Of a stretch of 64,000 bases of DNA, positions 11,637 to 50,024 are shown piece by piece (positions within the stretch are counted from its first letter, which is position 1; every line of letters starts with the position of its first letter). The stretch comes from Macrophomina tecta (Eukaryota > Ascomycota > Dothideomycetes > Botryosphaeriales > Botryosphaeriaceae): assembly GCA_024180945.1 (NCBI GenBank), contig JAKSGN010000042.1, positions 248,001 through 312,000 of the forward strand, read 5' to 3'. The notes below the pieces were generated by a model, which was not told the origin of the DNA, made no database searches, and saw only the letters and a list, made by a program, of their open reading frames with translations. The translations under genes were made by a program, and so were the position numbers.

Positions 11637-12795
11637 TAGCGATATTATGGACTTTACTAAGAGGTTTTATTTCGCGCTAGCCAAGGCCTTTGCTTCTCTT
11701 CTAAGCCTCGATCATATCTATGTCGTAAGAAGCCTTATCGAGCTCCTTAATTTGTTTATAAGCAGCTTCGACAGCCTCCTGCGAATGCATAAAGAGGAAG
11801 GCTTATACGATAAGGTTAACAACGTGGCCGTGGTAGCGGATACGGCGATGTTCTACCCGCTATATAGTGCCTTTCTCCCTTAGGTAGCCGCTGAGCGCAC
11901 GGCAAAGGACGTCATTAGCGCTATGGTTATCGCCTATAATATATCCTATCTTATGCCAGATGCCATATTCTTCAAGCACTAGCTAAAGGAGTTTCTATTA
12001 CTTAGCCCCACTATGGCTACCGGGGCCATCTATGCCAGGAAGCTCGGACAGAGCGAGTAGAGCCTAACGGACTTTCTTTATATCCTCCTCTACTAATTGT
12101 ACGCAAGTTCCGAGGAAAGCTTTATAGTTTGGCGCGCTCCATACGTCGGCGGAAAGATAAAGCTTTAAGACCGAGGATTAGAGCTTCTGTCGCAGGATGT
12201 CTTTATAAACAAAGTAGAAGTTAGAAATAAGCTTCTAGACTGAGCCGTGGGAGAGGCTGATAATGTCCCCTACAGTGTAGTTAACTGCCAGAAGTAAAGC
12301 GTGTAGCTCCGGCCATTGGCTATAATTGTAAGGAAGGTTCCGCACTGTGACCAGCTGAACCAAAGCCTTAATTGCAGCCTTTGGATTTAGAGCGTCCTGG
12401 AGTACCTGCTCCTCGCGCATTTGAAGCTTGACGGTGTTTACATGGCCGGCCTTAGCAAAGGCGTCTTTAAGGAGCGAATTCCGTGCCCTCTTTACCGGAT
12501 GTGCCTCTGAGTATTCTACCTCGATTGAGTGGACCTTCAATAGGTGATTGCGGAAGGTAGTTGAGACATAAGTAGAATAAGATGGGCTGACGTAGTATTT
12601 ATAGTAGAAGACGAGGTCCTTCTTTTGGCCTCTACGTTCGGGCTTAGAGCTTTGCGGCCGACGAGCATGCTCCCAGGTAGAATCCGTTGTGCGAGCACGC
12701 CTTTTTTTCGAGGAGGTTGAGGATAGGGTCTTCGGGGTCTCGGTTTGCTCAGATGAACTCTCGATCGACTCCACGACCGAGAAGGAGGAGGACAT
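11637..12795 (-). pseudogene. hAT-A transposase, N-terminal half
   Basis: Reads from the ATG at 12795. A Ser/Glu-rich start is followed by a BED-like finger (TFRNHLLKVHSIE), then LSADVWSAPNYKAFLG, YIIGDNHSANDVLC and GHVVNLI, ending KVHNIA at the pogo border. These parallel hAT-2 residues about 60-390. At least eight in-frame stops after 12235 are TAG or TAA at positions where Gln is expected, the CAR-to-TAR change typical of RIP. The reading frame continues without loss of a codon into the half at 50025. Confidence 0.88.
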
Positions 12796-13229
12796 TATTA
12801 AAAAAAATATTGGTGGTTTTAGACAGAAATGCTTGGTTAGATGGCATAAACTTGGGGCTGAATTGGGCATCGAAGGAATGAATCTTTTGATGTCGCCTTC
12901 TTGAGCGACGGTAGTGAATATATCTACCTAAACTGCTGCTAGCCCAATCTAGATGAGGTGTGACGTGTATCAGAATCTAAACTATAGTGTAACCGCTTAG
13001 AGTATTACCTCCTTATTTTAATGTATGGTGATATAGGCATTAATAATTCATGCGTTCTAGAGCTATCCAGGAACCTCTCTTACGCAACACCAACCAAGTC
13101 CGGAATAAGAATTTTCCGGCGTATGATCATACTTAAACCATACGGCCGAGCTGTATGGTATAGGTGTATGGTTTATATATGGTTTATATATGGTTTAACT
13201 AAACCATACGCGTATGGTTAGAAAGCCTG
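11637..13229 (-). mobile_element. hAT-A, 5' half of a split hAT transposon
   Basis: The 5' terminus (minus strand) begins CAGGCTTTCTAACCATACG at 13229 and is followed inward by a subterminal array of ACCATACG and TATGGTTTA motifs (13130-13220). The half element stops exactly at the TA target of pogo-A copy 1. The missing 3' half is at 50025-51162, where the matching terminus CGTATGGTTAGAAAGCCTG is found. Confidence 0.9.
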
Positions 13230-13908
13230 TCCCGTACGCCTTCTTAAGGGCCGCAAAACAACTGACATCAAGTGGTTGGAGGAGGTGGGATGAATGCGCA
13301 GGCATACAGAGCGTGATAATCTTATGTTCCTGGCAAAACGACTCGAATTCAGCCGAATGATGGCTCTCGTGGCCGTCAAGAATTAAAAGACGATATGCTC
13401 CAGTTGTACGATCCTTCGTGTGCTTTTCGAAGTGCTGCAGCTACTAGAACGTAAGCTTATTTATCGTCCAACCGTTATCGCTCGTTGCGATAACCCAATC
13501 GCCTAGTATATAGTCGCTGTACCAAGCTAAAAGGTGGTATTATCCCTTAAATATTACGAAACGGCGGGATCGCCCACCCTTTCGCGTTGACTCCCTGGAT
13601 CACCGAAACCCACTCGCGATTGCCGGCTGCCTTGTCTTTGGTCGAGCACGTCGTTCGGAGGCTGTGACAACCATTCCGGCTGCAATAACGCCCATAAGGA
13701 AGCCCGCTTCGTTAAAGTTGAAGATATCGTCGTCTACGATCCCGTACTTCGCGATTATATTCCGTACGAGGTTAAACCAGCCTGTAATAGGCTCTGGATC
13801 CTCGCACTTAGCCCTCTGGTCATCGTACTTACGATTCAGACGTGTTCTGAGCTCAGGGGTCCGCTTTATAAAGTTAATAGGCCAGTTCTTGCCAACCTCG
13901 CCTCCAGC
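13230..13908 (-). pseudogene. Relic of a pogo transposase, both ends missing
   Basis: Minus-strand translation gives GKNWPINFIKRTPELRTRLN, RAKCEDPEP, IFNFNEAGFLMGVIAAGMVV and, toward 13300, pieces matching LLILDGHESHNSAEF of pogo-C. Terminal repeats are absent and stops are frequent. One end abuts the hAT-A terminus at 13229, so hAT-A probably inserted into this relic. The other end abuts a Gypsy LTR fragment. Confidence 0.8.
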
Positions 13909-14078
13909 TGTAACGAGCGGGCCTCTGCCTCTAAGGGTCTAAACACCAAAGAGGGAGAAAACCTGTCGAAGGGTTTCCTTGAGTGGGTACAAGAAGAGGG
14001 TGAGAGCAAGTCGAACACGTGATGAGACTGAGCACTGCGTGCGAAGGCCGTGTTACTAACAATGTGCTGAATTGTTAT
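13909..14078 (-). repeat. Gypsy LTR fragment
   Basis: Starts TGTAACGAGCGGGCC, the same boundary as the complete solo LTR at 39223, and matches the LTR at 62078-62519 in reverse orientation. It is cut after GAATTGTTAT, where the TIR element at 14079 begins. The rest of the LTR is not found beyond that element, so this is a broken copy. Confidence 0.8.
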
Positions 14079-15010: not shown

Positions 15011-15014
15011 TTAT

Positions 15015-16447: not shown

Positions 16448-16465
16448 CTATCTTTCGTCACTACT

Positions 16466-16711
16466 ATGCGTCCAGCCTACCTTTCTATTCTCTTTTTTGC
16501 TGGGGCTCTCGCTGTTCCCCAACTGGAAGAGAGCCCAAGGTTAGCGCAATGGATATCCAGATGCATTAGAATCCTACTGAATCATACAGCGATCTGAACA
16601 GCCTCCAATCTCGTGCAGTTGATCTTATCAAAATTCGTGCACTGTAAGTTCGACAACCCACAGTATGAACGAAAAATTGCTAATTCCTGTGGAGTGACCT
16701 CAACAGTGTAG
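16466..16711 (+). pseudogene. Small secreted cysteine-containing protein gene, truncated by hAT-2
   Basis: The ATG opens a clear signal peptide (MRPAYLSILFFAGALAVPQ) with a likely cleavage site near residue 18. The frame has one TGA at 16595-16597 (codon 44) and is otherwise open across 81 codons, with three Cys (one before, two after the stop). The final stop, TAG at 16709, is supplied by the hAT-2 terminus, so the original 3' end is lost. Small size, a secretion signal and a few Cys resemble fungal effector-type proteins; that is inference from architecture only. The TGA could be a CGA-to-TGA mutation or could lie in an unrecognised intron. The remainder of the gene is not found beyond hAT-2. 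Confidence 0.55.
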
Positions 16712-19199
16712 TTTTCAATCCTGTCAATCCTTATCAATCGATATCGACGATTGAATTGAATTGAGATGGAATTGACAGGAAATTGATCAATCCTCCTGGA
16801 ATTTCCGCCACCGGGGCACCACCGGGGCGCCACCCCTCTTCTATCACAGATATCACAACGCCAACTCCCACTGTGGCTTGTTGGCAGGACAACCAGTAGG
16901 AAAAAAAAATTCAATTTCAAAGTCTAATCAAGCATTTCGATGCCAGCTCTTCATACATTCGAGCATTTCAATTGTTTGAGCGGATAACTGCGCTCTATCC
17001 CATGAGATTGTACGACGAGCTCCTGAAAAGACTCGCTCCGCCTCGTCACTCATTGCTGGGATTGAGAGGATATCAAGTGCCATTCTTGAAAGCCTTGGAA
17101 AGCGTCTTCTTTGTGGCTCTTGTAGCCACCACTCAATAGCACTCATATTCCCGAGGTCGTAAGGCTCTTGATCGCAATAGTCGTCAAACTCATCCAGGCT
17201 GCGTGGCCGAGAGTAACCCTCCAGGTCTCGTGCAATCTTACGGAATGCGGAGACTGGCTTTTGAGTCTCTTGACTCGCTTCGACTTCGTATGATGGTATT
17301 ACAGGAAGGTGTGTGCTACCCCGGTAGCCCCGCCAAAGCTTTCTGACGCTATTGATGGCCGTTTTTTGCCAGGATGCTTTCCAGTTGCTTTGGATATACT
17401 TCGTACGGCGGTTTGGATGAAGTATGATACCAGCGGCATAGAGAGGTGAGTCATCTGTCTTGCTATAATACTTGTCGAGAGTCTCCCAGCTACTGGTAAT
17501 CCGAGAACAGAGCTCCTTGTCGTCTTTGAACTCATCGAGCGCCGATTCCAGGTGCCTGATCAGCACATCCATAGTGAAGAGCACAAAGTCGATTGTCGCC
17601 TTATGTCCTTGGCAGTACAGAGTTGCCTCCTGAAACGGCCCCAGAAACGTCTGGATAGTACGAATCTTTTGCCAGTCTAGGGGAGACAGGAAGTCATCCT
17701 TCAGGTCCGCCCAATAGGCTTTGCAGAACTCGTCAATCTTGCTTTCATACTTGAGTGCAATATCGCACATGCTGGTCCAGCTATTCCATCTTGTACGGTT
17801 GTCCAGCGGAATCAACCTTCCCACCAGGTCGATGAAGGCCTGAGTGCGGCCGCTTGATGCTCGCACGAAGACAACGATGTTGTGAAGCTTGCCTAGGGGA
17901 CCCATAACTCGAAATGACTGCCGTAAGGCTTCGGTAGCTCCAACTGGGCCATCTCTCGCGATAATCTCCTGCTCTTCGAATGAGTCCAGCTCCTCCACCT
18001 GCATGAAATTGTGGAAGAGGAATGCCTGAACGGCCAAATTAATTATATGGCCAATGCAACGTATACGATGAGTAAGTATGTCCCAAGGGACATCTTGTTC
18101 TTCAAGATAGCCACCAATCGCAGAACAAAGAGTATCGTTTGAGCTTGCGTTGTCGCTAATGATGGATCCAATCTTTTGAACGATGGCGAAGTCTTCGAGA
18201 ATTGGTTTGAGAGCCTTAAATTGCCCCTCTCCAGCATGATTAGGAATCGTGCGAAGACCAATGAGAAGCCTGGACACTTCGATTTCGCCTTCTGCAATGT
18301 AATGGGCGCAGATTCCAAGCAGAAGGAGCCTATTGGGAGATGACCATACATCGACTGCAAGATTGACCTTCGAGATCGACGACTGAAGCCTCTTTCGTAT
18401 GGAATCTTTCCGGCATTCGTAGAGCATCTTGATCTTCTTTCTGACCTCCGAGTGTGCGGTTGTGATGCAGCCTTCGACCTCCGGGTTGAGAAGCTGGCAA
18501 AAGGCGTGAAATTCGGGCCACTCCACAATACGAAATGACAGATTCCGCGCAATGATTAACGTAGCCAGCGCCTCCGTGATGACCTCCTTGTTAAGAACCT
18601 TTCGAAAGACTTGAGCGTCTATCTTTTGCGACGTTTGCCCTGCTGATGCCGCCTTCAAGTAAAGGCGTTCGAGCTGGTCGGCGGTTGATTTACAAATCGC
18701 TCCAGGCTCTTCCACGACAGTGATTCCATGGACACTTGCGAGATGGTTTCGAAATGTGTTGCTTGCCTGGCTTCGATAGCCATTCGTACAGTATTTGCAA
18801 TAGAAAAGTCGGTTTTTCCCTTCCTTTTCCGGTTCATTTGGCCCTGGCTGACGACAGTGTGCCCTCGTTGCAGATGCTGCAGTTCCTCTTGTATTTCTGG
18901 ATCGTGATGTTGCCTCGGTGGTGAGACAGTCCTCAACGGAAAGGTTTGTAAAAGACGAATTGAGCTCGTCATCCATGCCCGATAATTGATAATGCAATAG
19001 AAGAGGACTGTTTGATGCATTTCGGGTCCTGCGGCTCCCTGCGGGCGTGTTTTATGGCGTTTGTTTGGTGGCGTTTGGCAGGGCAACCAGGAGGCTGTCG
19101 ATCCTTATCAATCGTCAATTCAATTCCATGATGGACTTGATATCGATTGATAGGGATCGATTGATAAGATTGATAAGATCGAGATTGAAAACCACACTG
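16704..19199 (-). mobile_element. hAT-2, complete hAT transposon
   Basis: 2.5 kb with termini CAGTGTAGTTTTCAATC (left) and CAGTGTGGTTTTCAATC (right, reverse complement). Both are followed by imperfect arrays of ATCAATC and CTTATCAAT. The transposase is full length and unbroken, so the element could be autonomous. The flanking 8-mers differ (GACCTCAA left, AGTAGTAT right). The left flank is a secreted-protein gene and the right flank is the interior of a Copia LTR. The two sides are therefore not one pre-insertion site. Confidence 0.9.
16928..18997 (-). CDS. hAT-2 transposase, 689 aa, intact
   Basis: Cuts and rejoins DNA at hAT termini. BED-type zinc finger with C67, C70, H85 and H90 (C-x2-C-x14-H-x4-H). 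The RNase H-like core has D216 in NLAVDVWSS, D282 in ISDNASSND and the C-x2-H motif C314/H317 in RCIGHIIN. The catalytic Glu is E654 in the dimerisation region (SIPAMSDEAERVFS), after EWWLQEPQRRRFPRL. Length is normal for fungal hAT enzymes. The second Met (M8) may be the true start, since it begins the acidic MDDELNSSF stretch. There are no stops or frameshifts, in contrast to hAT-1, hAT-A and hAT-3. It probably acts in the nucleus as an oligomer and could supply activity to deleted relatives such as hAT-A. Confidence 0.92.
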   Translation of the reverse strand: MHYQLSGMDDELNSSFTNLSVEDCLTTEATSRSRNTRGTAASATRAHCRQPGPNEPEKEGKNRLFYCKYCTNGYRSQASNTFRNHLASVHGITVVEEPGAICKSTADQLERLYLKAASAGQTSQKIDAQVFRKVLNKEVITEALATLIIARNLSFRIVEWPEFHAFCQLLNPEVEGCITTAHSEVRKKIKMLYECRKDSIRKRLQSSISKVNLAVDVWSSPNRLLLLGICAHYIAEGEIEVSRLLIGLRTIPNHAGEGQFKALKPILEDFAIVQKIGSIISDNASSNDTLCSAIGGYLEEQDVPWDILTHRIRCIGHIINLAVQAFLFHNFMQVEELDSFEEQEIIARDGPVGATEALRQSFRVMGPLGKLHNIVVFVRASSGRTQAFIDLVGRLIPLDNRTRWNSWTSMCDIALKYESKIDEFCKAYWADLKDDFLSPLDWQKIRTIQTFLGPFQEATLYCQGHKATIDFVLFTMDVLIRHLESALDEFKDDKELCSRITSSWETLDKYYSKTDDSPLYAAGIILHPNRRTKYIQSNWKASWQKTAINSVRKLWRGYRGSTHLPVIPSYEVEASQETQKPVSAFRKIARDLEGYSRPRSLDEFDDYCDQEPYDLGNMSAIEWWLQEPQRRRFPRLSRMALDILSIPAMSDEAERVFSGARRTISWDRAQLSAQTIEMLECMKSWHRNA

Positions 19200-20853: not shown

Positions 20854-21147
20854 TTTTCTTAAGCTAATTCTGAGTAAGATAAGCATGCATAGCGACTCTA
20901 GACCCGTTGTGTCGACTCACGCTGCGTTGTTCGGTGGGTGGGCAGTCAGCCCGTGTCAGGCCGGCCCAGAACTTTTATCCTAGTACTGTATATCAAGGTA
21001 AATACGACTTTCTACTAGCTGATAATTGTTGGAACATTACGTGTATTTGGCTTTTTGCCAAGTGTAGTCTATGCAGGAGAGGACAAAAGGCCACGCCAGG
21101 GCCGCCCTCCTCCAACACCGTGCCAATCTATGCCTTCATCACTGAAT

Positions 21148-21640
21148 AAGCTGTCACTTCACTTGCTCCAACAGCATATAAGACAGCTAAGAAAGCCGCT
21201 AGGCTGCCCTCGAAGGAGCTTAAAGCTACTTCCCTTAGCTATCTGAAGCAGACGATCTGGAAGCGTAGGAACACGCTAGCAAAGAAAAACGACCCACGAA
21301 TACTCGACGCCCCTAAAGAGATATCAGCGCGCTACCTGCAGCTAAAGACGAATCACGCCTGCACAGGAGCCTACCTCTATAGATTCCGCAACACAGACAG
21401 CCCCAGATGCTGGTGGTGCAACCACGACTCTCAAACAGTTGATCACCTATTGTTCGCTTGCAGGAGGTGGCACCAGCAAAGAGAATCTCCTTTTGGCGAC
21501 GGAGGGCGAAACCGATTTTGCAAGCGACTGTAGGCGTCAGAGATTGCGCGGGCTAGACGTTTGTACAGCCTACCATGAATTACTGCGTGAAACTTAAGTG
21601 GGCGTGACATTCCCCGGCCCATGGATACGAATAATTACTG
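21148..21640 (+). pseudogene. LINE ORF2 C-terminal relic
   Basis: Reads LPSKELKATSLSYLKQTIWK, YLQLKTNHACTGAYLYRF and a zinc knuckle PRCWWCNHDSQTVDHLLFAC, the C-terminal end of Tad-type LINE proteins after RNase H. Everything upstream is missing and the frame breaks after 21490. Part of it (about 21648-21685) also resembles 44400-44430 in reverse. Confidence 0.75.
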
Positions 21641-32253: not shown

Positions 32254-34115
32254 ACGTATTCCATAAGCGAGATGGCCACCCAAGCGAGATGGCCACTTTC
32301 CACCAACACCAATTGATTAAGTCCTATTTTTCTACCACAACACAACAAATCTACTATAATTTCACTTTAAATCAATGAACTAGATGATTCTACAGCTTTC
32401 TGGCAAGTGCGCGCATTATGGCCGGGTTTGCCGCAAATTCCACAGCTCCGAACGTTCGTACGAGCCCCGCCTACACGACTACTACTTTGGCGCATTTCTT
32501 GCTCTATCTGCCCATCCACATCCTTTTGATCCAACGAGTCCTGTGCATCTTGTATAGTAAGTGATCCTCCAAGTCGCACGCGTGTCTTTTTGGCCCTCCG
32601 GCGCTTGCTTAATGCTTCGTTGGCTTTGCGAAGTGAGGAGTTCTCTGCGCGAAGAAGAGCCACCTCGTGCATCATAGCTTTCGTCCCCTTCGCAAGCTGG
32701 TTGATAGCATTAAACATTGACGTTGGCGAGCTATTCTGGTGGTTGGAAATGCGAGTCTTAATAAGTTCCGACTGCGAGGTAGCCTCTCGAGGGTTTTGCG
32801 GCGTCTTTGAAACCCAGGGTTGTGCCGTGCTAGGCCGGGAGTTTGGGGGAGTCGGGGTCCGAAGCTGTACATCTAACTTGGAAAGCACCCTCTGTGGATC
32901 GTACGGTACCAGCCCAGCTCCTACAAAGCCACTTCGTACGTTTCTTTCCGTCATAGAAGCAAAAAAGGCTGTGCGGAAGGCGCAAAGGAACTCGAGCTTG
33001 CTTACGTGATTGATATGCGCGCGCATTAAGTCCTCGATCTGGCGACCGTACGCCTGCTTTAGCGGTCCAAAACAGCTGACATCTAATGGCTGGAGGTAGT
33101 GCGAGGAGTGTGGAGGCATGCAAAGAGTGATAATGTCATGCTCTTGGCAGTAGAGCTCGAATGCGGTCGAGTGGTGGCTTTCGTGGCCATCGAGTACTAG
33201 CAACCGATATTTGCCCTTTGTTCGAGCTGCTGTATGGCGATCGAAGTGTTTAATCCAATCCAGGCCTATGTCGTTTGTGGTCCAGCCATTGTTGGATGTC
33301 GCAATAACCCAATCAGGCGGCAGGTTACATTCCGTATACCAATTGGCAAGATGGTGTTGAGCCGCGAGAATGATGAACGGAGGGATGGACCAGCCTTGAG
33401 CATTAATGCCTTGGATAACCGTTGCCCACTCCCGGTTGCCAGGCTGGGCCAATTTAGCTTTGCCACGGACCATCCGAAGTGGTTACCACCATGCCGGCAA
33501 AAATAATGCCCATCATAAACCCAGTCTCGTCAAAGTTGAAAGAATCCTCATCTAGTATACCGTACTTGGCTTTCACGTTTCCCACAAGCGAAAACCATTC
33601 GCAAATGACCTTTGGATCTTCGCATTTGGCCCTCTGGTAATCGTATTTGCGAGAAAAATGCGTGCGCAGCTCTGGTTGGCGCTTAACAAAGTTGGAGGCC
33701 CAGTGCTTGCCGACGCATGGCGCGTCGCGTGCGCGCAATAATTGGTTGGCCATATCTTCCACGCCGCGCAGCCTAGGTGGAAATGAACGCGTAGATAGCT
33801 CGACTATATGCTCAATTACAGCTCTTTCTTCCAGATCCGTAAGCTTGCGCGAGTTGGCTGGAATATCGCGTCGTGCAGGCTTACCGACCCGTCGGTTTTG
33901 CAATGTTGAACGCTGTACGTTATAGATCTTTGCCGCAGCTCTAACGCTTAGATTTTTGTTTTTCTGGAGAGCTTCGAGGGCTAAATTGATCCTGGCTTCG
34001 TATTGAGTGGATTCCATTTTTCGTGGTGGAGGAATTGATGTTGTAGGTAGATGAGGCGCGCCGCGGTGGAAAGTGGCCATCTCGCTTGGGTGGCCATCTC
34101 GCTTATGGAATACGT
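32254..34115 (-). mobile_element. Pogo-B copy 1, full-length Fot1/pogo element
   Basis: 1862 bp with TA on both sides. Termini begin ACGTATTCCATAAGCGAG, with two direct AAGCGAGATGGCCAC units. Same length and same translations on both strands as copy 2 at 47022-48883, in opposite orientation. Its insertion lies 8 bp beyond the stop codon of the MADS-box-like gene. Confidence 0.95.
32367..34017 (-). pseudogene. Pogo-B transposase, copy 1, one frame break
   Basis: From ATG 34017: psq-type HTH (NLSVRAAAKIYNVQRSTLQNR), CENP-B HTH (DAPCVGKHWASNFVKRQPELR) and first Asp in FNFDETGFMMGI. Then, in another frame (32367-33473), VLDGHESH and QPLDVSCF with 35 residues between the Asp residues (DD35D), a coiled segment and a C-terminal zinc knuckle CGICGKPGHNARTC. 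The two frames overlap near 33460. One missing or extra base breaks the protein, or a 43-nt GTAACC...CCCAG segment with a GCTAAAT branch could be an intron restoring frame. Both copies share the same state. Confidence 0.85.
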
Positions 34116-34123
34116 TAGGCCAG

Positions 34124-34360
34124 CTAGGCTCTTACAATGTCTTCATGACTCGGCCACATTATCCTTTCATCAGACGTATAAACATAGTATCTCCCATAGA
34201 ACCGAAGGAGAATATGCACTTCGGCTTGGCAAAGCCGCCGTAATTCCTCCCCCTTCCTAAGTAGGCTCTCTTTCCGATTTCGAAACTTTTCCTTTAGCAC
34301 TCGGTTTGGTCGCCCATTCTTTGTTTGTAGAGTGGACATCGCTGATGTACTGCTCTGCAC
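34124..34360 (-). CDS. MADS-box-like small protein, 78 aa
   Basis: The core RNRKESLLRKGEELRRLCQAEVHILLRF follows the MADS-box pattern (R-K-x5-K-x2-E-L-x2-LC-x-AEV-x-hydrophobic), then GRYYVYTSDE. This resembles short SRF-type proteins expanded in some Pezizomycotina. The frame starts at ATG 34360 and stops at TAG 34124-34126, just before the TA of pogo-B copy 1. It is shorter than classical MADS regulators and lacks an activation region, so it could be a truncated or dominant form. The second TA-flanked terminus sits in its 3' UTR and may affect expression. Confidence 0.55.
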   Translation of the reverse strand: MQSSTSAMSTLQTKNGRPNRVLKEKFRNRKESLLRKGEELRRLCQAEVHILLRFYGRYYVYTSDERIMWPSHEDIVRA

Positions 34361-35040
34361 TAGCTAGCAGAAGAACAGCGATATTTATCTCTTTTTGGAA
34401 CTGCCCAAGAATCATAGATACCATGCCTTCTGCAAGACGTTTGCTAGGAAAGCGAAAGCTGACAACCGGACTTGGAGCCTGATAAACTGGATTCTGGATT
34501 CTGGGTTCTGGTTTTTGGTTTCTTGATTCACAAAAGCTGGATTATGGTTCGGTAAAGGGTGACAGCACGAGTGCTATAATAAGAAAATTTGGGCGCCAAA
34601 GTTACCCAATCAAATCGTCCTAGGCCGCGAAATCCTACTGCACGCGTCCTCGTCGCCGCGCCTGGTAATATTCATCAGAGGAGCGTCTCTGATGGGTAGC
34701 CGAGTGCAGAGGTGATGGATGGCAGCCTGCAACACGCCATTGCAGGCTGTTGGAGTGCGGCTTCGACGCGATGAAAATTTTTCATCGACGCGCCGACCGC
34801 AACCACAACCGCGCTACCTACTGCCTCCGCTTGGGCAACGCGACCATCTATCCAGGGAGGCTCATCGAGGGAAACTGGGATACGAAAACCACCCGACGTA
34901 CGACTACCTGGCTCGCAGCCAGGCCCGACGCTGGCCCTACCTGACCAGCCGATGTGGACGCGCCCTAGGCGTACGACAGGACACCCTTGGGCTTGCACCG
35001 GCTCTGAGATCGCTGGGAATGCGGCGAGGGCGCAGGGGAA
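34361..35040. other. Intergenic stretch
   Basis: No supported gene. GC content rises after about 34650. Short frames on both strands have no recognisable motif. Confidence 0.45.
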
Positions 35041-38831: not shown

Positions 38832-39087
38832 TGTCAACCAGAATCCCCTCGTTTTTTATGCAACACTTATCATTGCTTCCTTAGGCTCTACATTGATTCC
38901 TTCCTCGGTATCCCCTACACCTCGGATCTTCTACTTTTCCTCGGATGTTCTCAATTCCTCGGTTATACTGTTTCAGAGTCATGTATTTAAGGACGCTCAT
39001 TCTCCTTCAGTTAGAAGGACAGGCAGAAATTCGATTCTTTCTTCTGACCTCACCGAGTTCGGGCCTGAGGCCCAACCAAATTCGACA
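38832..39087 (+). repeat. Family S LTR, copy 4
   Basis: TGTCAACCAGAATCCCCTC ... four TCCTCGG motifs, TGTATTTAAGGACGCTCATT, CTTCTGACCTCACC ... ACCAAATTCGACA. A short coding start follows at 39130, so this one may be a 5' LTR of an otherwise lost element. Confidence 0.65.
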
Positions 39088-39129
39088 CTATCATTGGGCA
39101 ATCGCAAACTTTTCGCTTGTACTCCAACT

Positions 39130-39222
39130 ATGGCGTGGAACTATCATTTTGGAGATATGGAGGCTTTCTATGCTGAGAGATTTGCGCAAGTCGATGCTCA
39201 GAATGCACTTATTGAGCCTCAA
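39130..39222 (+). pseudogene. Start of a retroelement-like ORF, interrupted by a Gypsy LTR
   Basis: MAWNYHFGDMEAFYAERF opens about 43 bp after LTR copy 4. The frame reaches 39222, where the solo Gypsy LTR sits. Removing that LTR and one CTCAA copy lets the frame continue as DVPTPWPKRAAAMAASEA to a TAG at about 39758 and a basic stretch beyond. Probably an N-terminal gag-like piece. Confidence 0.4.
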
Positions 39223-39696
39223 TGTAACGAGCGGGCCTCTGCCTCTAAGGATCCAAACACCAAAGAGGGAGAAAACCTGTCGAAGGGTTTCCTTGAGTGG
39301 GTACAAGGAGAGGGTGAGAGCAAGTCGAACACGTGATGAGACTGAGCACTGCGTGCGAAGGCCGTGTTACCAATAGAGTCCAAATTCTATTGTTGAAGTT
39401 GACCACGAAGGTCAAAGCTATCTAAGGAGTGTGGTTTATATACAAGTAGGAAAGTGTATACAATCTGTATGCTCAGTGGTACGTTGTGCTCAACCGCTAC
39501 CTCTTCTGAGCGCGGCGAAGTGACTGAGCGGGAGTGCTCAGTGGGCCCTGTCCGCTCATTGGTCTTGGCGAATGAGCGGGTGGGTCCAACTGATCGTGGG
39601 GGTCACGTGACCTCGGATCCTTGTGATCCCGACTTCTATCGTTTCCAGCGGGGCTGATTCCCAACTTCCTCGACCTGTGGAGGCTGCGCCGTAACA
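39223..39696 (-). repeat. Solo Gypsy LTR with perfect 5-bp target duplication
   Basis: TGTAACGAGCGGGCC ... GGCTGCGCCGTAACA, 474 bp, flanked by CTCAA at 39218-39222 and 39697-39701. Homologous in reverse orientation to the 5' LTR at 62078-62519. Confidence 0.9.
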
Positions 39697-39701
39697 CTCA
39701 A

Positions 39702-40209
39702 GATGTACCTACGCCGTGGCCTAAGCGCGCTGCAGCAATGGCGGCTTCAGAGGCATAGAAAACTCTTAGACCGCGTAAGAGACCTCGACATCAGTAGAAG
39801 ATTTTGAGCAAGTATTAGCCTCTATTTCGAGGTCAAGACACCGATGCACATTGATGGTTGTAATTTATTTTGGCGCTAGTTAAGGTATGGCTAGCGTCGG
39901 GGACAAATCTCACTAGCCCTGCACATCATCCCGAGACTCAATTTGCCACACGCTAACAATATTTACCCCGGCGACCACAGTTACGTTTCACTGAGGATGA
40001 TGATCAATCACATGCGATCCGGCCACTGACCAATTGCCAGTTGCGCGCGCAGCCACGCATAACGCCACCGACGACATCTGGATGATTTGCTGCTCCTCAA
40101 CGAGATATTCACATGCTTGCCTTCCTGGTTAAAACCTATCAACCCCAACTTTACCTTCCATCTCCTTGCTACCTTCGACTCAAGATAAACGAAGAGAATC
40201 ATACACGCA
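39702..40209. other. Intergenic region upstream of the VIP1-like gene
   Basis: The first 100 bp are tail of the interrupted ORF above. The rest is the promoter region of the next gene. I see no strong TATA box. Confidence 0.45.
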
Positions 40210-41106
40210 ATGGCTTCAGTTCACGTCGAGAATATCTCTGCCCAGACCAGCGAGAAGGAGATCTGCGACTTCTTTAGCTTTTGGTAAGCTCTCTTACCTC
40301 AACCCTTGCAATGACGTGCAGGTACAAATTTGATCCACAGCGGCAAAATCCGGTCCCTTTCCCTCGACTCGACCGCCGAGAACACACAATCTGCGACAGT
40401 CACCTTCGAAAAGGAAACCGCCGCGAAGACCGCTCTCCTTCTCGACAACACTCAGCTCGGCCATACTCAGGTTACGATCTCCGAGCATATTGAGCAAGAA
40501 GATAAGCCGCGCGGTCGTATCATGGCCGAGTATCTCGCATATGGCTACGCGATAAGCGATGAGGCGATTGAGAAGGCGCTGGAGCTCGATAAGCAGCACG
40601 GTGTGTCCTCGCGCTTTACTAATGCGCTTAAAGCCTTTGACCAGAAGCGCAAGGAGTCGGAGAAGGCCAACTCCGGCTGGCGCAGCCCTAGCTCCTACTT
40701 CGACAAAGCATTCAGCACATCGGCCGGCAGAGAGCTCCGCAAGTTCTACGAGCAGGGCAACAAGCAGGTTATTGACGTCCACAACGAGGCTCGCCATCTC
40801 GTCAACTTGAAGAAGCAGCAGGAAGCCGGCATGGAGCACATTCCTGGCACCGACAGGACCAAGTGCAACTGCGGTGCTACTGCCGAGAAGTGCCCTTGCA
40901 CCCCAGGAAAGTGCTGCTGCGCCGACTGTGCGAAGAACCCGGAGGCTGGTGCGAGCAAGGGCACGATCAGCCCTGGGGATGCCGGCATGGAACAAGTCCC
41001 TGGAGCCGACAGGACCAAGTGCAATTGCGGGGCTACCATTGAGAAATGCCCTTGCTTGCCCGGCAAGTGTGCTTGTGCCAGCTGCGCCAAGAACCCTGAG
41101 ATGTAG
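40210..41106 (+). CDS. VIP1-like RRM protein with duplicated Cys-rich tail, 279 aa
   Basis: Exons 40210-40283 and 40341-41106; intron 57 nt (GTAAGC...CACAG), which puts the Cys codon of FFSFCGK across the junction. RRM at about residues 3-75 with RNP2-like VHVENI and RNP1-like QSATVTFEK, then a helical middle with GRIMAEYLAYGYAISDEAIE, as in S. pombe Vip1-type proteins. The C-terminus has two copies of a 39-residue module (188-226 and 240-278), each with a DRTKCNCGAT, CPC and PGKC pattern, 8 and 7 Cys. The spacing suggests metal binding; that is inference. Likely a cytoplasmic RNA-binding or cytoskeleton-linked protein. The gene looks intact between transposons. Confidence 0.85.
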
Positions 41107-41413
41107 AGGATACTCATGATAACCCAGGTCAGGCCCAGGTGGAGAGTGGACTTAGTTGAGGGAAGTAGCTGTTGATCAGCAAAGGCGATATGGTTAAATG
41201 GGGAATTGAGTTTACTCTGAGTATGATGTATACCGGTACATTACTTCCTTTGCTTCTTGGAGCTCTTCCGTGATGACGAATGATGAACCTTATGATTCTT
41301 GAGTTTTCAGTCATCTGTGATTGACCCCACGGAGTACGAAAGTATCCAAAAGGCTTTCCGCTCCTTTATTCTACAAGGGTGCTCGCCAATTTGGGTCTCG
41401 CTGCGCTTGTGAC

Positions 41414-44272
41414 CAGGGTGGCAATCAATTCAATAATATTGACGGTCAATCAATATTGACCAATGTCTTGGCAATCAATCAATCAACTGAGGTCTGTCAT
41501 TTTCGTCAATCAATCAATTGCTCCGAGCCAGTTGATTGACGATATTGATTGACGGCTTACCTTGTATAGAAAGCAGCTTTGATGATCATCTCGCTCTTGT
41601 GGCGCTCAAGCCACGTCAGGCTAGCCTTTTATCTGATACACTCTTGGCACACAACGTGTCGGGCACATTCTCTTGGCAGCTAGTATATAAACGCTCTCTC
41701 AGAATGGCTAGAAGGGACAGCTGAATCTGCTCTTTCAGATCCGTTCTACATTTTCTCAGCAGCTCAGCAGCAACTCTCCCACTATCAAGATGGACTCTAG
41801 CAACGATCAACACTCTGTTTTAAGCCTCTCTAGCGCGCCCACTAGCCTCTTTTCCTCTCAACAGGACTCAGATCCTGCGCAACCCACCAATCTTGCCGTT
41901 GATGGCCGAGGACCTGTACGCGAAGGGTGGGAGTACTTCCCATGGCAGAAATTCCGTGGATATCATGTCACAGAGTCAAAGCAGCGCAGCGGGTGGACTT
42001 GGGAGCACGCATATGACATTGAGGACGTAGAAGGGCGTACCCGCTGGGTCTGTATGTACTGCGTGCACAAGAAAGCCCACAAACCAGCTAGCTTCGCTGC
42101 TGCTGGCACTGATAATCAGGCAAGGCACCTGGTGACTGAGCACAAGGTTGAGGATCCTACAGGGAAGCGTCACGTCAAACGGGCCAAGATTTCAGTTGCT
42201 CAGCGGCTTGGACTGGATACGAATAGGCCTTCAGAGCAGGCTATTGTCAATCGCCTTGTCACATCATTCAATCCGGCGTACTTCCAGCAACTACTCACTG
42301 ATTGGGTCTCATCCGATAACATTCCTTTCCGCAAGCTTGAAAGCGAGAGATTCAGGCGCGTTCTTAGCTATTTGAATCCTGCAGTAACGTCTACTGGCAG
42401 CCTTCCAACACACTCTACTGTTCGTAAATGGCTACTTGATGAATTCAACCGCCATAAAGGGATCGTTGCTGAGCTTCTTCAGAGCTCACCTGGCCTTATA
42501 CACCTTGCCTTTGACGGCTGGACGTCGTGTAATCACCTCTCTCTACTCGGTATTAACGTCTTCTTCCTTACGTTCTCTGGCACGCTTCGCAAGTTCCTTA
42601 TTGGCCTCCCACACGCCGAAGGACGGCATACTGGTGACAGCCTTGCGGAAGAGGTAGCCCAGATAATTATGGAATGGGGCATTGGAGGGCAACTTGGCTA
42701 CTTTGTCACGGATAACGCGTCAAACAACGACACGTGCATGGACGCGCTAGCTGAAGAGTTTGGCTTCAATCACAAGCACCGCCGCTTGCGCTGCATTGGC
42801 CATATCATAAACCTGGTAGTCCGCCAGATCCTCTTTGGCAAGGAAGCTGACGCGTTCGAGAACGACTGCGCTCAGCCAAAGGAGCTACTCGCTGAGCTCC
42901 TACTCTGGCGCAAGAAGGGCCCTATCGGCAAGCTTCACAATATCGTCCACTGGATTCAGCGCTCAAACCTTGTCTATCAGAGACTGCACCAACTTCAGCG
43001 GAACGAGCAAGCGTTGACTGGCGAAAACGGCCCTACCTACGAGGTTATAGAGGATAATGCGACACGATGGAACTCTACCTCCGCCATGATTGAGCGCGCA
43101 ATCAAGCTACAGTCAGTCATTGACGCCCTCGTCCTCCACGAAGTTCAAGAATGGGATAAATACGTCAAGCTTCGCACTGCCAGTAGGACTCAGCCAATGC
43201 CAGCTAAGACAAAGAACAAGCCGGCAATCGTGGATGATTATCTAACCTCAGATGATTGGGCAACTCTTGCTGAATATCACTCCATCTTGAAGCCTTTTCA
43301 TGAAGTCACAATCAGGCTACAAGCCAACCCAACTAGTGGTAGGTTTGGCGGCTTATGGGAAGTCCTTCCGTGCATGGAGTACCTGTTGAACAAGCTGGAG
43401 GAGGTCAAGATCCGCACAGATCAGTATCCTGACTCTCACTTCAAGGTGAACATCAATTTGGGGTGGGCTAAGCTAGATGAGTACTATCAGCTCCTTGATG
43501 ATACTCCAGCTTACGTCGCAGCTTGCGCCCTTCACCCTGCCTACCGCTGGGAGTGGATTGAGGATCAGTGGGCATTCAAGAAGAGCTGGATCAAGAAGGC
43601 AAAGGCAGCTGTTCTAAAGCTCTGGAAGGATGAGTATCAGTCAATTGCTATTGCTGAGGACCCACAGCTACCGCAGAAGCGTAAACGCGAACATCTCAGC
43701 GAATTTGACAGCTGGCTTGCTGCGTCCAGGAGGACCAAGCATCTAGATCTGACCGAGGATGAGTACACCTACTGGCAGCTCGATACCTCTCCTACAGATG
43801 ACGCAGTCACCAATCCAGTTGATTACTGGATACTACGCCGCCAGCAATACCCCGCCTATCACGTATGGCTCTGGACCTCTTTTCTATACCGGCAATGTCG
43901 GCAGAGGTGGAGAGGATATTCAGTTTGGCAGGACAAATGGTGACGCCATTGCGCAATAGGCTGGAGGCCAATACTATAGCAGTTGGGCAGATACTACGCT
44001 CATGGAACGCAGAAGGCATCATTGAAAGAAGTTGAGGACTCTATACACGCGGGAGTAGCTATAGCTAGCAAGAGTTAGCTAGATTGTATGGCTATCAATC
44101 TCAACACTATGCCAAGCATCACGAGATTTTGCTACGTGAACCGTGTGTCAATCAATTCAATTCAATCAATATCAACACCTTATTGATCAATCAATTTGAC
44201 CTTATTGGAAAATCCTATCAATCAATCAATCTGGACCCGATATTGACGTTGATTGAATTGATTGCCACCCTG
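41414..44272 (+). mobile_element. hAT-3, full-length hAT transposon with perfect 8-bp TSD
   Basis: Termini begin CAGGGTGGCAATCAATTCAA on both sides, followed by arrays of AATCAATC and ATATTGAC. CTTGTGAC flanks it at 41406-41413 and 44273-44280. 2859 bp. The exact target duplication indicates a recent insertion. Confidence 0.97.
41790..44033 (+). pseudogene. hAT-3 transposase with one frameshift near its C-terminus
   Basis: Frame 41790-43943 gives 717 aa. It contains an N-terminal WTWEHAYDIEDVEG block, a BED-type finger (WVCMYCVHKK ... ARHLVTEHKV), LAFDGWTSCNHL (first Asp), FVTDNASNND (second Asp), RCIGHIINLVV and TRWNSTSAMIE. Near 43845 a run of four C is one short: restoring frame gives MALDLFSIPAMSAEVERIFS with the catalytic Glu, then a normal end at TGA 44033. 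As written, the last 32 codons are out of frame and the catalytic Glu is lost. No other damage is seen. Confidence 0.9.
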
Positions 44273-44280
44273 CTTGTGAC

Positions 44281-44479
44281 GGCGTGCATCCGATGCACTC
44301 GCGGAAATGCAGTGGCATTGCCACCTACAAGAAGACTAAGCTAAAGAGAAAAAGAAAAGAGAACTTTCAGCAAAGTAAGTTGGACTCTTTTATCTCTTTA
44401 GCTACAATCGTCCTACCCCACGTCCTTGCCCACGTCCTTGCCTACGTCAGACGGGAAGTCCACCGAAGATTTAGCCTAA
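44281..44479 (-). repeat. Piece resembling LINE end, reverse orientation
   Basis: About 30 bp at 44400-44430, read in reverse (GGGGTAGGACGATTGTAGCT), matches 21655-21685 at the end of the LINE relic there. The rest is lysine-rich, low-complexity sequence. It lies just upstream of the LINE at 44480. Confidence 0.35.
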
Positions 44480-47019
44480 TCTCTCCAACATCCCCTATAG
44501 AAGTTAAAGAGGCCTACCTTCAAGCTAAGAATACCTACTTTTCAGCTATTAAGCGCAAAAAACGAGAGCACTGGGAAGAATTCCTTCAGAAAGAAGATCC
44601 AAAGTCCATCTATAAGGCTATGGCGTACACGAGAGACCGCCTAGTCGAACGGATTCCTCAGATACGCGCAAGGGATAACCAACTACAAGATAGCTTTACT
44701 GGAAAATGCTCCGCGTTCAGGGAATCCCTATTCCCCCGACCACCACATGCTGAATCCGTCACCTGGGAAGACTTCACTCCAGACCCCTCATGGGACTGGC
44801 CAGAGCTTACCCAAGCGGAGGTAGAGCAAGCCTGCTCTACCCAGGTTAAAGGAAAAACTCCAGGCCCTGACGCTATTACCCAGGACATTATAATAGCTGC
44901 CTATCAGGCCTATCCAGAGATTTTCTTTAAGGTGTTCTCTCTCCTTTTTAATAGTGGCTACCACCCTACTATATGGAGACAGGCAACCGGCGCAATTCTG
45001 AAGAAACTAGGAAAGAAGGACTATAGCGATCCAAAATCCTACCGGGTCATCTCCCTTCTAAACTGCCTAGGCAAAATCCTCGAACGGATCTTAGCGAAGC
45101 GGTTAAGCGCGCTAGCGGAAACTACGCACCTCCTCCATAAAACCCAAATAGGTGGTAGACTAAAGAAATCCGCCATCGATGCCGCCCTCCTTCTTACGAA
45201 CGAAGTAGAAACGAATAGGCGGTACCAACGAAAGACCTCTACTCTATTTCTCGATGTCAAAGGAGCCTTCGACCATGTAGCTAAAAACCAGCTACTAGCC
45301 ATTCTTAAGAAGCTTAGACTCCCAGGCCCACTTATCAGCTGGGTATCGACGTTTATGAGTAATCGGACTCTAAAGCTTTCATTCGACGGACAGTACGAAG
45401 AAACGAAGTCGGTAGATACAGGCATCCCACAAGGAAGCCCCATCTCACCTATCCTCTTCCTTATCTATATAAGGGACCTCTTTAAATCGTCCGCAGTTAA
45501 ATTCCTTTCTTATATCGACGACATCTCTCTAACAGTTAGCTCTACTAGCTTTAAGAAGAACGTCAAGATTCTAGAAAGAGAGGCAAAAAAGCTCTATCAA
45601 CTCGGAGAGAAAAGCCGTGATAGAATTCGACCTTAAAAAGACGGATCTAATGCACTTCTCTACTGGGAAGGGGTCGGATATACCTCTTACTCTCCCCAAC
45701 GGAGAAATAATCCAGCCAAAAGAGCTCGTCCGATGGCTAGGTATCTGGTTTGACCCACGGCTCTCCTTTAAGCAGCACCGTGCTTTGAGGATAAGCCAAG
45801 GCCGATCCGCCTTTCAAAGACTCTCCCGCCTAGCAAATACTGAACGAGGACTTAGCCCCTATGCAATAAGACAGCTATATCAAGCCTGTATTACCAGCGT
45901 AGCGGACTACGGCTCTATTATATGGTGGAAGGGTCAGGAGAACGCCAAAAGGCCTGCTCAAGCACTCCAGAATCTCGGCCTACGTAAGATTCTAGGGGTC
46001 TTTAAAACGTCTCCAATCCTCCCACTAGAAGTAGAAGCCGCTCTACCCCCTCCAGAGATCCGTTTTAGTGCTCAGCTCCGCCAGTACGCATTTCGGATCC
46101 TAAAGCTTCCAAAGGACCACCCAGTCCACCAGGAACTCGACAAGATCAGATCTCCTCACTATCAATCCCGCGGCCCAAAGACCCAATTAGAACGAATTTG
46201 GGAGTCTATCCAAGAGGTCCTACACGATGGACCCCTAGAGAAGATCATCCCGAATTACTTTCTCCCGTGGAAGCGGCGTACACCGTACAACGTAGAGATA
46301 GATCCTAACCCGAAGGAAATTGCCGCCCAAAACCACCTCAATCAACTTCGGGCGCTTCAAGGGAAAGTGTAGCAATATACTCCGATGCATCCTCACAGCC
46401 AAACGGTAAAGGAATCGGGGTTGGGCTTATTGCCTACCAAAACGGCCAACCAGTATACTCGAGAACCTCGAATATAAGCTACGAGAATATCGTCTACAAC
46501 GGCGAACTCGAAGGTATTGCCCAGGCTTTTGAGTACGCTGGGAGACAGGCGAAACCCGGCCAAACCTTTAGAATCTACGCAGATAACCAGGCTGCTATTC
46601 TCAGGCTCAAAACCCCCTCAAACAACCCCGGTCAAGCGTGGCAGATTCGGGCTATAAACGCCGCGCTATCCGCTCAGTCAAAGGGAGCATCCACCTCCTT
46701 ACACTGGGTCCCAGGCCACTGCCAAGTCCCCGGGAACGAAGAAGCCGATAACCTTGCTAAAGACGCTACAAAGCTTTCCCCCAGCTCTAGTAATACGAGC
46801 TTCGCCCTCCTAGGAATTAGGATTAAAGGCCTAGACCGAAGAGACTGGAAACTAAAGCTCGAGAGCTATAGCAAGCGGCCAGATCAATCCCAAAACTCAT
46901 ATACCCGTAATTTCAGCTGGAAGATTAGAAAGAAACCAGCCGTCCCATCATGCTCACGAGAAACGGCCAGCGCCTTCTACCAGCTTAAATTAGGCCATGG
47001 GTACTTTAAGGCCTATCTA
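44480..47019 (+). pseudogene. LINE ORF2: RT and RNase H, frameshifted, cut by pogo-B
   Basis: Non-LTR reverse transcriptase: KTPGPDAITQDI, SYRVISLLNCLGKILERILAK, STLFLDVKGAFDHV, GIPQGSPISPILF and the catalytic FLSYIDDISL (about 45502-45531). A frameshift near 45615 leads into 45617-46372 (RWLGIWFDPRLSFKQH), and another near 46372 into RNase H (AIYSDAS, YNGELEGIA, YADNQAAI, LHWVPGHCQVPGNEEAD). The protein reaches SAFYQLKLGHGYFKAYL and is then cut by pogo-B copy 2 at 47020. The endonuclease and 5' end are missing. The zinc-knuckle end expected next is not found on the far side. Confidence 0.9.
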
Positions 47020-47021
47020 TA

Positions 47022-48883
47022 ACGTATTCCATAAGCGAGATGGCCACCCAAGCGAGATGGCCACTTTCCACCGCGGCGCGCCTCATCTACCTACAACATC
47101 AATTCCTCCACCACGAAAAATGGAATCCACTCAATACGAAGCCAGGATCAATTTAGCCCTCGAAGCTCTCCAGAAAAACAAAAATCTAAGCGTTAGAGCT
47201 GCGGCAAAGATCTATAACGTACAGCGTTCAACATTGCAAAACCGACGGGTCGGTAAGCCTGCACGACGCGATATTCCAGCCAACTCGCGCAAGCTTACGG
47301 ATCTGGAAGAAAGAGCTGTAATTGAGCATATAGTCGAGCTATCTACGCGTTCATTTCCACCTAGGCTGCGCGGCGTGGAAGATATGGCCAACCAATTATT
47401 GCGCGCACGCGACGCGCCATGCGTCGGCAAGCACTGGGCCTCCAACTTTGTTAAGCGCCAACCAGAGCTGCGCACGCATTTTTCTCGCAAATACGATTAC
47501 CAGAGGGCCAAATGCGAAGATCCAAAGGTCATTTGCGAATGGTTTTCGCTTGTGGGAAACGTGAAAGCCAAGTACGGTATACTAGATGAGGATTCTTTCA
47601 ACTTTGACGAGACTGGGTTTATGATGGGCATTATTTTTGCCGGCATGGTGGTAACCACTTCGGATGGTCCGTGGCAAAGCTAAATTGGCCCAGCCTGGCA
47701 ACCGGGAGTGGGCAACGGTTATCCAAGGCATTAATGCTCAAGGCTGGTCCATCCCTCCGTTCATCATTCTCGCGGCTCAACACCATCTTGCCAATTGGTA
47801 TACGGAATGTAACCTGCCGCCTGATTGGGTTATTGCGACATCCAACAATGGCTGGACCACAAACGACATAGGCCTGGATTGGATTAAACACTTCGATCGC
47901 CATACAGCAGCTCGAACAAAGGGCAAATATCGGTTGCTAGTACTCGATGGCCACGAAAGCCACCACTCGACCGCATTCGAGCTCTACTGCCAAGAGCATG
48001 ACATTATCACTCTTTGCATGCCTCCACACTCCTCGCACTACCTCCAGCCATTAGATGTCAGCTGTTTTGGACCGCTAAAGCAGGCGTACGGTCGCCAGAT
48101 CGAGGACTTAATGCGCGCGCATATCAATCACGTAAGCAAGCTCGAGTTCCTTTGCGCCTTCCGCACAGCCTTTTTTGCTTCTATGACGGAAAGAAACGTA
48201 CGAAGTGGCTTTGTAGGAGCTGGGCTGGTACCGTACGATCCACAGAGGGTGCTTTCCAAGTTAGATGTACAGCTTCGGACCCCGACTCCCCCAAACTCCC
48301 GGCCTAGCACGGCACAACCCTGGGTTTCAAAGACGCCGCAAAACCCTCGAGAGGCTACCTCGCAGTCGGAACTTATTAAGACTCGCATTTCCAACCACCA
48401 GAATAGCTCGCCAACGTCAATGTTTAATGCTATCAACCAGCTTGCGAAGGGGACGAAAGCTATGATGCACGAGGTGGCTCTTCTTCGCGCAGAGAACTCC
48501 TCACTTCGCAAAGCCAACGAAGCATTAAGCAAGCGCCGGAGGGCCAAAAAGACACGCGTGCGACTTGGAGGATCACTTACTATACAAGATGCACAGGACT
48601 CGTTGGATCAAAAGGATGTGGATGGGCAGATAGAGCAAGAAATGCGCCAAAGTAGTAGTCGTGTAGGCGGGGCTCGTACGAACGTTCGGAGCTGTGGAAT
48701 TTGCGGCAAACCCGGCCATAATGCGCGCACTTGCCAGAAAGCTGTAGAATCATCTAGTTCATTGATTTAAAGTGAAATTATAGTAGATTTGTTGTGTTGT
48801 GGTAGAAAAATAGGACTTAATCAATTGGTGTTGGTGGAAAGTGGCCATCTCGCTTGGGTGGCCATCTCGCTTATGGAATACGT
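47022..48883 (+). mobile_element. Pogo-B copy 2
   Basis: 1862 bp, TA at 47020-47021 and 48884-48885, inserted in the LINE above. Same termini and translations as copy 1. Only 15 bp separate it from the next pogo element. Confidence 0.95.
47120..48770 (+). pseudogene. Pogo-B transposase, copy 2, same frame break
   Basis: Two overlapping frames (47120-47683 and 47664-48770) carry the HTH domains, FNFDETGFMMGI, VLDGHESH, QPLDVSCF (DD35D) and the C-terminal zinc knuckle CGICGKPGHNARTC. The frame change near 47670 is identical to copy 1. Either a shared disabling indel or a 43-nt intron explains both. Confidence 0.85.
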
Positions 48884-48900
48884 TATATGATGTGTAACTA

Positions 48901-50022
48901 ACGTATCGGATAAGCGAGTGTGCCAGACAAGCGAGTGTGCCACCCCATCAAAGCTCGATCGCTTTAAAGACGAATAACTCCACAACGCGTTATAAAATCG
49001 ACTATCTATAATACACAGCCTATTCTATAGTAGTTTACGCATCTTTTTGACATGTGCGAGAGTCGTGACCAGGCTCACCGCATTGCCCACATCGCCGTCG
49101 CTTCGTCGCAGGCCCATCCGATTACGCACCACCTTCGCGCGTTTCCGTCGAAATCTGCTGGTTAACAGCATTTTATCGACCAAATCCTGCCCAGCTTGAA
49201 TCGTTAGCGTCCTGCGCTTCTGAATCCGCTTTTTTTGCCGCTTCTTGCGTCTCGTTGCGGCCTAGTTTGCCCTTTGAAGATTCGCGGCTTCCGCCTGCAA
49301 AAGGACAGCCGAATGCGCCATCGTCACCGTAACCCATTCGCGATTGCCTGACTGAACAGTCTTTGATCGAGTACATTGCTCCGATGCTGTAACAACCATT
49401 CCAGCTGCGATCATGCCCATAAGGAAGCCGGCTTCGTCGAAGTTGTACATGTCTCCGTCCACGATCCCGTACTTCGCGATAGTGTTCCGGACGAGCTCGA
49501 ACCATTGCGCGATGAGCTCTGGGTCCTCGCATTTCGCTCGCTGGTAGTCGTACTTGTGATTCAGACGCGTTTTAAGCCCGGGAATCCGTTTCACGAAGTT
49601 GGAGGGCCAGTTCTTGCCAACGATACGTCCGGCGCGGTCGGCGAGTAGCTTATTTGCCGTATCTTCAACAGCACTCAACCGCGGCGGAAACCCTCGCGAA
49701 TCTAGGTCGAGAATGCGTTGAACAATTACAGATTCCTCGGGATCGGTAAGCTTTCGCGAATTGGGCGTGCAATCGCGTCGTGAATGGGTCCCGTCGCGTC
49801 GTCGCTTAAGAGTCATTCGATTGACGTGATACGTCTCCGCAGCGCCCCGATTACTCAGAATTCTGCCTTGATCGATAGCCTGCTTTGCTAAGAATAGACG
49901 AGATTCATATAAGGGAGATTGCGCGTGGTTTGGTTGTTGCATGGTTGATAGAACTTAAGGTGACGCGTTTGTTGATGGGGTGGCACACTCGCTTGTCTGG
50001 CACACTCGCTTATCCGATACGT
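48901..50022 (-). mobile_element. Pogo-A copy 2
   Basis: 1122 bp, TA at 48899-48900 and 50023-50024. Inverted twin of 10515-11636. Its right border is the broken end of the hAT-A 3' half. Confidence 0.95.
49262..49942 (-). pseudogene. Pogo-A transposase, DDE domain deleted, copy 2
   Basis: 226-aa frame identical to 10595-11275, including the REWVTV-MAHSAV deletion junction. The deletion therefore predates the copying. Confidence 0.9.
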
Positions 50023-50024
50023 TA

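Follow-up and report, generated by a model that had tools for sequence, protein, structure and literature searches.

A MADS-box-like gene broken into three pieces records two nested inversions, each of which is bounded by a pair of near-identical, oppositely oriented pogo transposons (Table 1). Undoing the inversion between the pogo-A copies (11639-48898) together with that between the pogo-B copies (34118-47019) renders the gene pieces collinear save for two insertions, and lets the two halves of a hAT transposon meet through pogo-A. Both inversions most likely go back to homologous recombination between inverted pogo copies of recent duplication, with a probability that we put at roughly 0.55; in this we infer both the type of exchange and the prior position of the elements in an intron of the gene. 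Not every joint is accounted for by the two inversions, because the target duplications of hAT are unequal, the reciprocal junctions were not found with up to 2 mismatches and the flank of a LINE element remains unmatched. The locus nevertheless provides an unusually legible case, in which two nested inversions are readable to the base and one gene witnesses both.

Setting of the locus

The window, i.e. the whole stretch of 64,000 nt analyzed here (C36:248001-312000), belongs to a contig of 347,566 bp in an assembly comprising 54.1 Mb in 37 contigs. When one window protein was searched, 5 of the 8 matches carrying an organism name (22 matches in total) were from Macrophomina, Diplodia, Neofusicoccum or Botryosphaeria, which we take to belong to the Botryosphaeriaceae. 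One repeat occurs at equal coordinates (2779-4279) on C36 and on contig C22, close to both contig starts. The two contigs may open with one common subtelomere, and C36 may represent a small chromosome or a chromosome end. Additional repeats are present in the window: a hairpin with 160-bp arms that are 97% complementary and separated by a 68-bp spacer (37702-38089), and direct repeats of 300 bp that are 99% identical (27545-27844 and 35745-36044), the second of which is directly followed by an RNase H-like frame (36112-36735).

Table 1. Features at the breakpoints and in their surroundings. Positions refer to the window.
Feature	Position	Strand	Remarks
DUF7924 gene	7727..9073	+	adjoins the MADS-box-like gene, in the window and in the paralogues alike
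MADS-box-like gene, second exon side	9619..10514	-	open reading 10208-10501; lies directly left of pogo-A copy 1
pogo-A copy 1	10515..11636	+	non-autonomous; 1122 bp; TIRs of ~53 bp; TA at 10513-10514 and 11637-11638
hAT-A 5' half	11639..13229	-	1591 bp; RIP-like mutation pattern
Outer 8 bp of hAT 5' end, GTACGGGA	13230..13237	-	within pogo-C gene
pogo-B copy 1	32254..34115	-	1862 bp; TA-flanked
MADS-box-like gene, first exon side	34116..34614	-	open reading 34124-34363; lies directly right of pogo-B copy 1
LINE (reverse transcriptase)	44284..47021	+	interrupted at the TA that borders pogo-B copy 2; 44284 is the listed start, not necessarily the true LINE start
pogo-B copy 2, inverted	47022..48883	+	0 differences from copy 1 over 1862 bp
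MADS-box-like gene, putative intron middle piece	48884..48898	+	15 bp; between pogo-B copy 2 and pogo-A copy 2
pogo-A copy 2, inverted	48901..50022	-	1122 bp; TA at 48899-48900 and 50023-50024
hAT-A 3' half	50025..51162	+	1138 bp; RIP-like mutation pattern
Outer 8 bp of hAT 3' end, TTGTGAAA	51163..51170	+	within repeat R

Inverted pogo pairs bound both segments

The sequence-only reading of this DNA had proposed one inversion of the segment 11.64-48.90 kb between two identical pogo-A copies, one of them inserted in a hAT element. The inversion itself gains support from its flanks: the sequence on the outer side of copy 1 (up to 10512) and that on the inner side of copy 2 (from 48898 inwards) join gap-free into the MADS-box-like gene. 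A single inversion is not sufficient, however, as a second one is nested within the first and is bounded by the identical pogo-B pair.

Both elements show the features of the pogo group of Tc1/mariner transposons. The TA target duplication and the terminal inverted repeats are present. The truncated ORF of pogo-A (10595-11275) gives a weak HTH_Tnp_Tc5 match below the Pfam cut-off and lacks a DDE domain. In pogo-B, the DDE_1 domain typical of the group is combined with a helix-turn-helix domain (HTH_psq/HTH_Tnp_Tc5), and the domains are spread across two ORFs. The pogo-A copies are of equal size and inverted as claimed, but they are not strictly identical: 1 of 1122 bases differs (position 902), and copy 1 is the deviant, since copy 2 agrees with 6/6 aligned relatives. 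The next copies found deviate by ~6%: these six relatives differ at 70-90 bases, and the nearest other pogo-A copy is 93% identical among the best 40 of 274 genome candidates scored. The copy closest to the pogo-B pair, L075, is likewise located on C36 and deviates by 5 substitutions and one gap (best 40 of 123 candidates scored).

Ectopic recombination is expected to involve homologous copies in inverted orientation at both breakpoints, and these are present for pogo-A as well as for pogo-B. It is also expected to exchange the flanks; here the gene is restored at both joints and hAT at one, but the LINE joint is not restored. Chimeric copies are a further expectation, but both pairs are too alike (1/1122 and 0/1862 differences) for any crossover point to show. 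Alternatively, hybrid-element (sister-chromatid) transposition could have produced copy and inversion together, separately for A and for B; the transposase would then have taken one end each of two sister copies of the same pogo element and inserted them at a nearby TA. According to the excerpt considered of PMC2775673, this model predicts identical copies, whereas ectopic recombination leaves chimeric ones. Indeed, the pogo-B copies are mutually identical and the pogo-A copies are so apart from one later change, and the twins are closest relatives among the copies compared (pogo-A: 1/1122 versus at least 70 differences; pogo-B: 0/1862 versus 5 plus a gap). However, recent transposition gives the same picture, and near-identical copies are expected under either model if the duplication was recent. 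Non-standard transposition is cited for the fungal impala element in the part considered of PMC8225341, which speaks for the one-step route. Against it, local copy-transposition followed by recombination would yield an equal structure, and with no DDE domain in the scanned pogo-A frame a transposase would be required in trans. Hybrid-element transposition is a possible but not a probable origin of the inversions, and it is rather doubtful that this happened to two distinct pogo-family elements, with transposase generating a nearby second copy along with an inversion each time and the same short intron as target in both cases. If hybrid insertion did take place twice, the gene on this small fungal contig would have been taken apart by transposition itself, and not by later homologous recombination. 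With near-identical copies at both inversions, the two routes should be distinguishable in related isolates.

The MADS-box-like gene as witness of both inversions

The MADS-box-like gene is uncut in the paralogous loci L062 (C37:477330) and L063 (C10:16772) and in the M. phaseolina protein P0023, whereas it lies in three pieces in the window, where its breaks are pogo-A and pogo-B. L062 and L063 are identical over 3833 bp, carry both the DUF7924 and the MADS-box-like gene, and constitute a recent segmental copy. The window matches them at 7822-9163 and 9619-10514 with 82% and 77% identity, respectively, and bases 2350-2817 of L062 continue into the window sequence to the right of pogo-B copy 1 (34119-34614; 77%). 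The 15 bp at 48884-48898, read on the minus strand, correspond to the L062 bases between these two gene parts. When both flips are undone, 27 bp across the intron align gap-free with L062 with 19/27 bases matching, and all 8 differences are transitions. In comparison, the present neighbor sequence of pogo-A copy 1 matches the L062 intron stretch at 7/27 bases. The 15-bp piece alone matches at 10/15 positions, a level that is reached by 93 of the 127,970 15-mers of the window (0.07%).

The exon structure follows from P0023 (180 aa), the single match of the paralogue protein search among 21 candidates. Its residues 23-99 align with 34357-34127 (E 1e-36) and its residues 97-179 with 10501-10214 (E 2e-29). 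On L062 the same protein aligns with 2654-2358 and 2320-2030 and skips a short stretch in between, which we read as an intron. The first gene part gives a sub-threshold match to SRF-TF (MADS). The earlier view that the MADS-like gene was merely flipped along with the segment does not hold, as the flipped block contains its first exon but not its second, which is found at 10.2-10.5 kb. Most likely, pogo-A and pogo-B both sat in one short intron of this gene, which is now in three pieces.

A wrong join at inverted repeats would equally produce a gene that lines up after two flips. The assembler could have flipped the segments that lie between the 1.1-kb and the 1.9-kb inverted repeats, and the true gene and hAT would then be uninverted. 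The repeats are suited to mislead an assembler, given that the pogo-B copies are identical over 1862 bp and that pogo-B copy 2 and pogo-A copy 2 adjoin each other in one repeat block of 3 kb. Nonetheless, 54.1 Mb in no more than 37 contigs suggests long reads that would span 3 kb. Moreover, by our reasoning, re-pairing the flanks of pogo-A in any order leaves the hAT duplications unequal, and a search of the assembly with up to 2 mismatches gave none of the junctions needed to complete both hAT insertions. We consider misassembly unlikely.

The LINE flank requires a further event

At the inner end of pogo-B copy 2, a LINE is cut at position 47021. Its continuation, seen in the loci L050 and L051, does not match the flank of pogo-B copy 1, and no match to it was found on C36 (22/22 candidates scored). 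The pogo-B/LINE site has therefore experienced at least one additional event beyond the inversions, since the LINE is not continued beside pogo-B copy 1. We considered L075 as the location of the missing LINE partner and dismissed it: by eye, the continuation of the LINE is not seen in the 50 bases on either side of this third pogo-B copy, and nor is the flank of pogo-B copy 1. A paralogue on contig C32 was also compared with the flank of pogo-B copy 1. Its similarity to the window ends at 31948; therefore, a further insert seems to be present there.

The two hAT halves join in frame

The sequence-only reading had further held that the hAT halves meet in frame at one TA and that they carry matching 5' and 3' termini. 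Both claims were confirmed. The termini at 13229 and 51162 are matching inverted ends (CAGGCTTTCTAACCATACG), and in 8/8 full-length copies elsewhere (L030-L036, L038) exactly TA lies between the sequences of the two halves. Partial copies on C23 and C30 show the same separation by TA alone, and seven copies read CATAATATCGC-TA-TCCACATAAGG. Translated by eye, the joint reads KVHNIA-IHIR in frame. Both halves align over their full length with one set of eight copies at 89-96% identity, which rules out chance as the source of the joint. The hAT joint is real.

A distant hAT fragment on C31 (L020) carries ~168 extra bases just ahead of the joint (~1333-1500), followed by GC-TA-TCC. By eye, the extra sequence resembles a solo LTR, and it is similar to 54830-54904 and 21121-21173 of the window.

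The hAT ends probably derive from two insertions

That the two halves stem from a single hAT insertion, as had been assumed, was not borne out. The outer 8 bp differ (GTACGGGA versus TTGTGAAA), although one insertion would leave equal duplications, and each flank has an empty site of its own. The 5' flank, belonging to pogo-C, is continuous in 8/9 fetched loci (L040-L047; the ninth, L048, lacks an exact 16-base anchor), and the 3' flank, repeat R, is continuous in 5/5 loci (L021-L025). In view of the differing outer 8 bp and the two distinct empty sites, we rejected one hAT insertion combined with one inversion. The hAT ends are two half-insertions. With unequal duplications and an empty site elsewhere for each flank, they call for an additional exchange between hAT elements or a deletion. 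Such an exchange would have occurred earlier between two hAT copies, for example as a deletion between direct copies. The reciprocal hAT junctions gave 0 matches genome-wide with up to 2 mismatches, a search that a more mutated or truncated partner end would escape. Matching termini and an in-frame joint are hence insufficient proof of one insertion; the target duplications must agree too.

The unequal GTACGGGA and TTGTGAAA and the two empty sites would also be accounted for by two separate hAT insertions that each carried pogo-A at the same TA, as copies of a composite hAT::pogo that had moved as a unit, and were later rearranged through a third pogo-A copy. This would call for three near-identical pogo-A copies, but two were found, the next being 93% alike among the best 40 of 274 candidates. 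In addition, the RIP load is equal in both halves (29% and 28% of CpA), which fits one element, or two elements treated alike. We judge this composite origin unlikely; our estimate concerns the hAT fusion alone and overlaps with those for the other readings.

Perfect 8-bp duplications flank 6/8 other full-length hAT-A copies, whereas they are unequal in the copy on C30 (GGGAACTG, CCACTGAC). Matching duplications are lacking in 3/3 hAT-A copies on C36 versus 0/6 full copies on the remaining contigs (Fisher p 0.012), which becomes 1/7 on inclusion of the C30 copy (p 0.033); the C23 copy, which lacks the 5' end, was not counted. We did not adopt the idea of C36 as the contig on which hAT-A loses its duplications: the contrast is weak, the C30 copy is also without a duplication, and hAT-3 on C36 keeps one. 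The latter element (41414-44272) lies within both inverted segments and has the perfect 8-bp duplication CTTGTGAC. The unequal duplications of L030 and L034 may have other causes. The 5' flank of L034 sits in a dispersed repeat, and a nested insertion could account for its unequal duplication. Nested insertion may likewise be the cause in hAT-2 (16704-19199), which has good terminal repeats and unequal outer 8 bp (GACCTCAA, AGTAGTAT); a dispersed repeat starts at ~19197, at the edge of this element.

Two nested arrangements were noted elsewhere in the genome. A related hAT (~80%) at C30:2041986-2046815 contains a pogo-A-like insertion close to its 3' end and is without a matching 8-bp duplication, and at L026 (C12:430052-430147) a hAT-2 copy is found next to the final 96 bp of hAT-A.

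RIP and exchange between hAT copies

C>T changes concentrated at CpA are the mark of repeat-induced point mutation (RIP) in fungal transposons. Compared with L032, the hAT 5' half has C>T changes at 58/201 CpA and 15/586 other C, and the 3' half at 41/149 CpA and 10/428 other C. The CpA load of the halves is thus alike, 29% and 28%, and about elevenfold above that of other C contexts. This agrees with RIP as known from fungal transposons, with both halves CpA-mutated and no difference, and we used the pattern solely to order events. pogo-A is without the RIP mark: relative to the consensus of six relatives, copy 1 has C>T changes at 6/126 CpA and 13/463 other C. As hAT shows the RIP pattern and pogo-A does not, pogo-A probably entered hAT after RIP, and its duplication is probably recent.

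hAT copies on C36 do visibly exchange sequence with each other, which speaks for the explanation that we favor. One hAT-A copy on this contig, L030 (C36:232432-235162), has 16 diagnostic sites at 195-718 in common with the 5' half in the window, zero after position 718 and zero in the 3' half. Four bases at 947-1327 point the opposite way, and site 146 as well as the 3' part follow L032. A crossover was considered for L030 and rejected, as the first informative site (146) is not window-like and a conversion tract at ~195-747 fits better; this probably is a tract of conversion between copies on C36. L034 was also considered as a mosaic, which was not borne out, as the two sites lie at opposite ends.

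Proposed course of events

Recombination between inverted copies is a usual cause of inversions, and it accounts for the exchanged flanks. According to the proposal that we favor, ectopic recombination between pogo copies, pogo-A and pogo-B would have inserted into the short intron of the MADS-box-like gene, at TA sites separated by 15 bp. Near-identical, inverted second copies would have come to lie within 40 kb, that of A inside a hAT element already mutated by RIP and that of B beside the LINE. Another exchange or a deletion would by then have joined two insertions into this hAT element. Ectopic homologous recombination between the A copies would have inverted 37.26 kb, and recombination between the B copies would have inverted the nested 12.9 kb, leaving the gene in three pieces and hAT in two. 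The order of the flips is not recoverable, because the two copies of pogo-B sit within the pogo-A interval at either stage, which makes the flips commute.

Comparison with known systems

Transposon-bounded inversions are a known kind of rearrangement, of which this locus is a new example. A literature search yielded such inversions in other organisms, and none of its hits describes this locus in title or abstract opening. A close parallel is provided by Galileo in Drosophila buzzatii, for which the excerpt of PMC2775673 describes oppositely oriented DNA transposon copies at both breakpoints and exchanged flanks, as seen here. In that case, however, the copies are chimeric and the 7-bp duplications traceable, whereas the copies here are near-identical and the 2-bp TA is untraceable. 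Unlike in the Galileo case as given there (PMC2775673), two element families are involved here at one intron. Alternative transposition of maize Ac/fAc, as presented in the part considered of PMC8225341, similarly generates DNA-transposon-bounded inversions that disrupt or rewire genes. Ac/fAc belong to the hAT elements, are directly oriented and have matching 8-bp duplications where the new junction forms, in contrast to the inverted pogo elements with TA found here (PMC8225341). Finally, for isolates of M. phaseolina, which represents the genus of the closest protein match, the excerpt of PMC6829926 reports inverted or translocated parts of contigs and, in one isolate, transposon-rich small contigs. 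In that excerpt the rearrangements are resolved at dot-plot scale and the breakpoints are not assigned to a transposon (PMC6829926).
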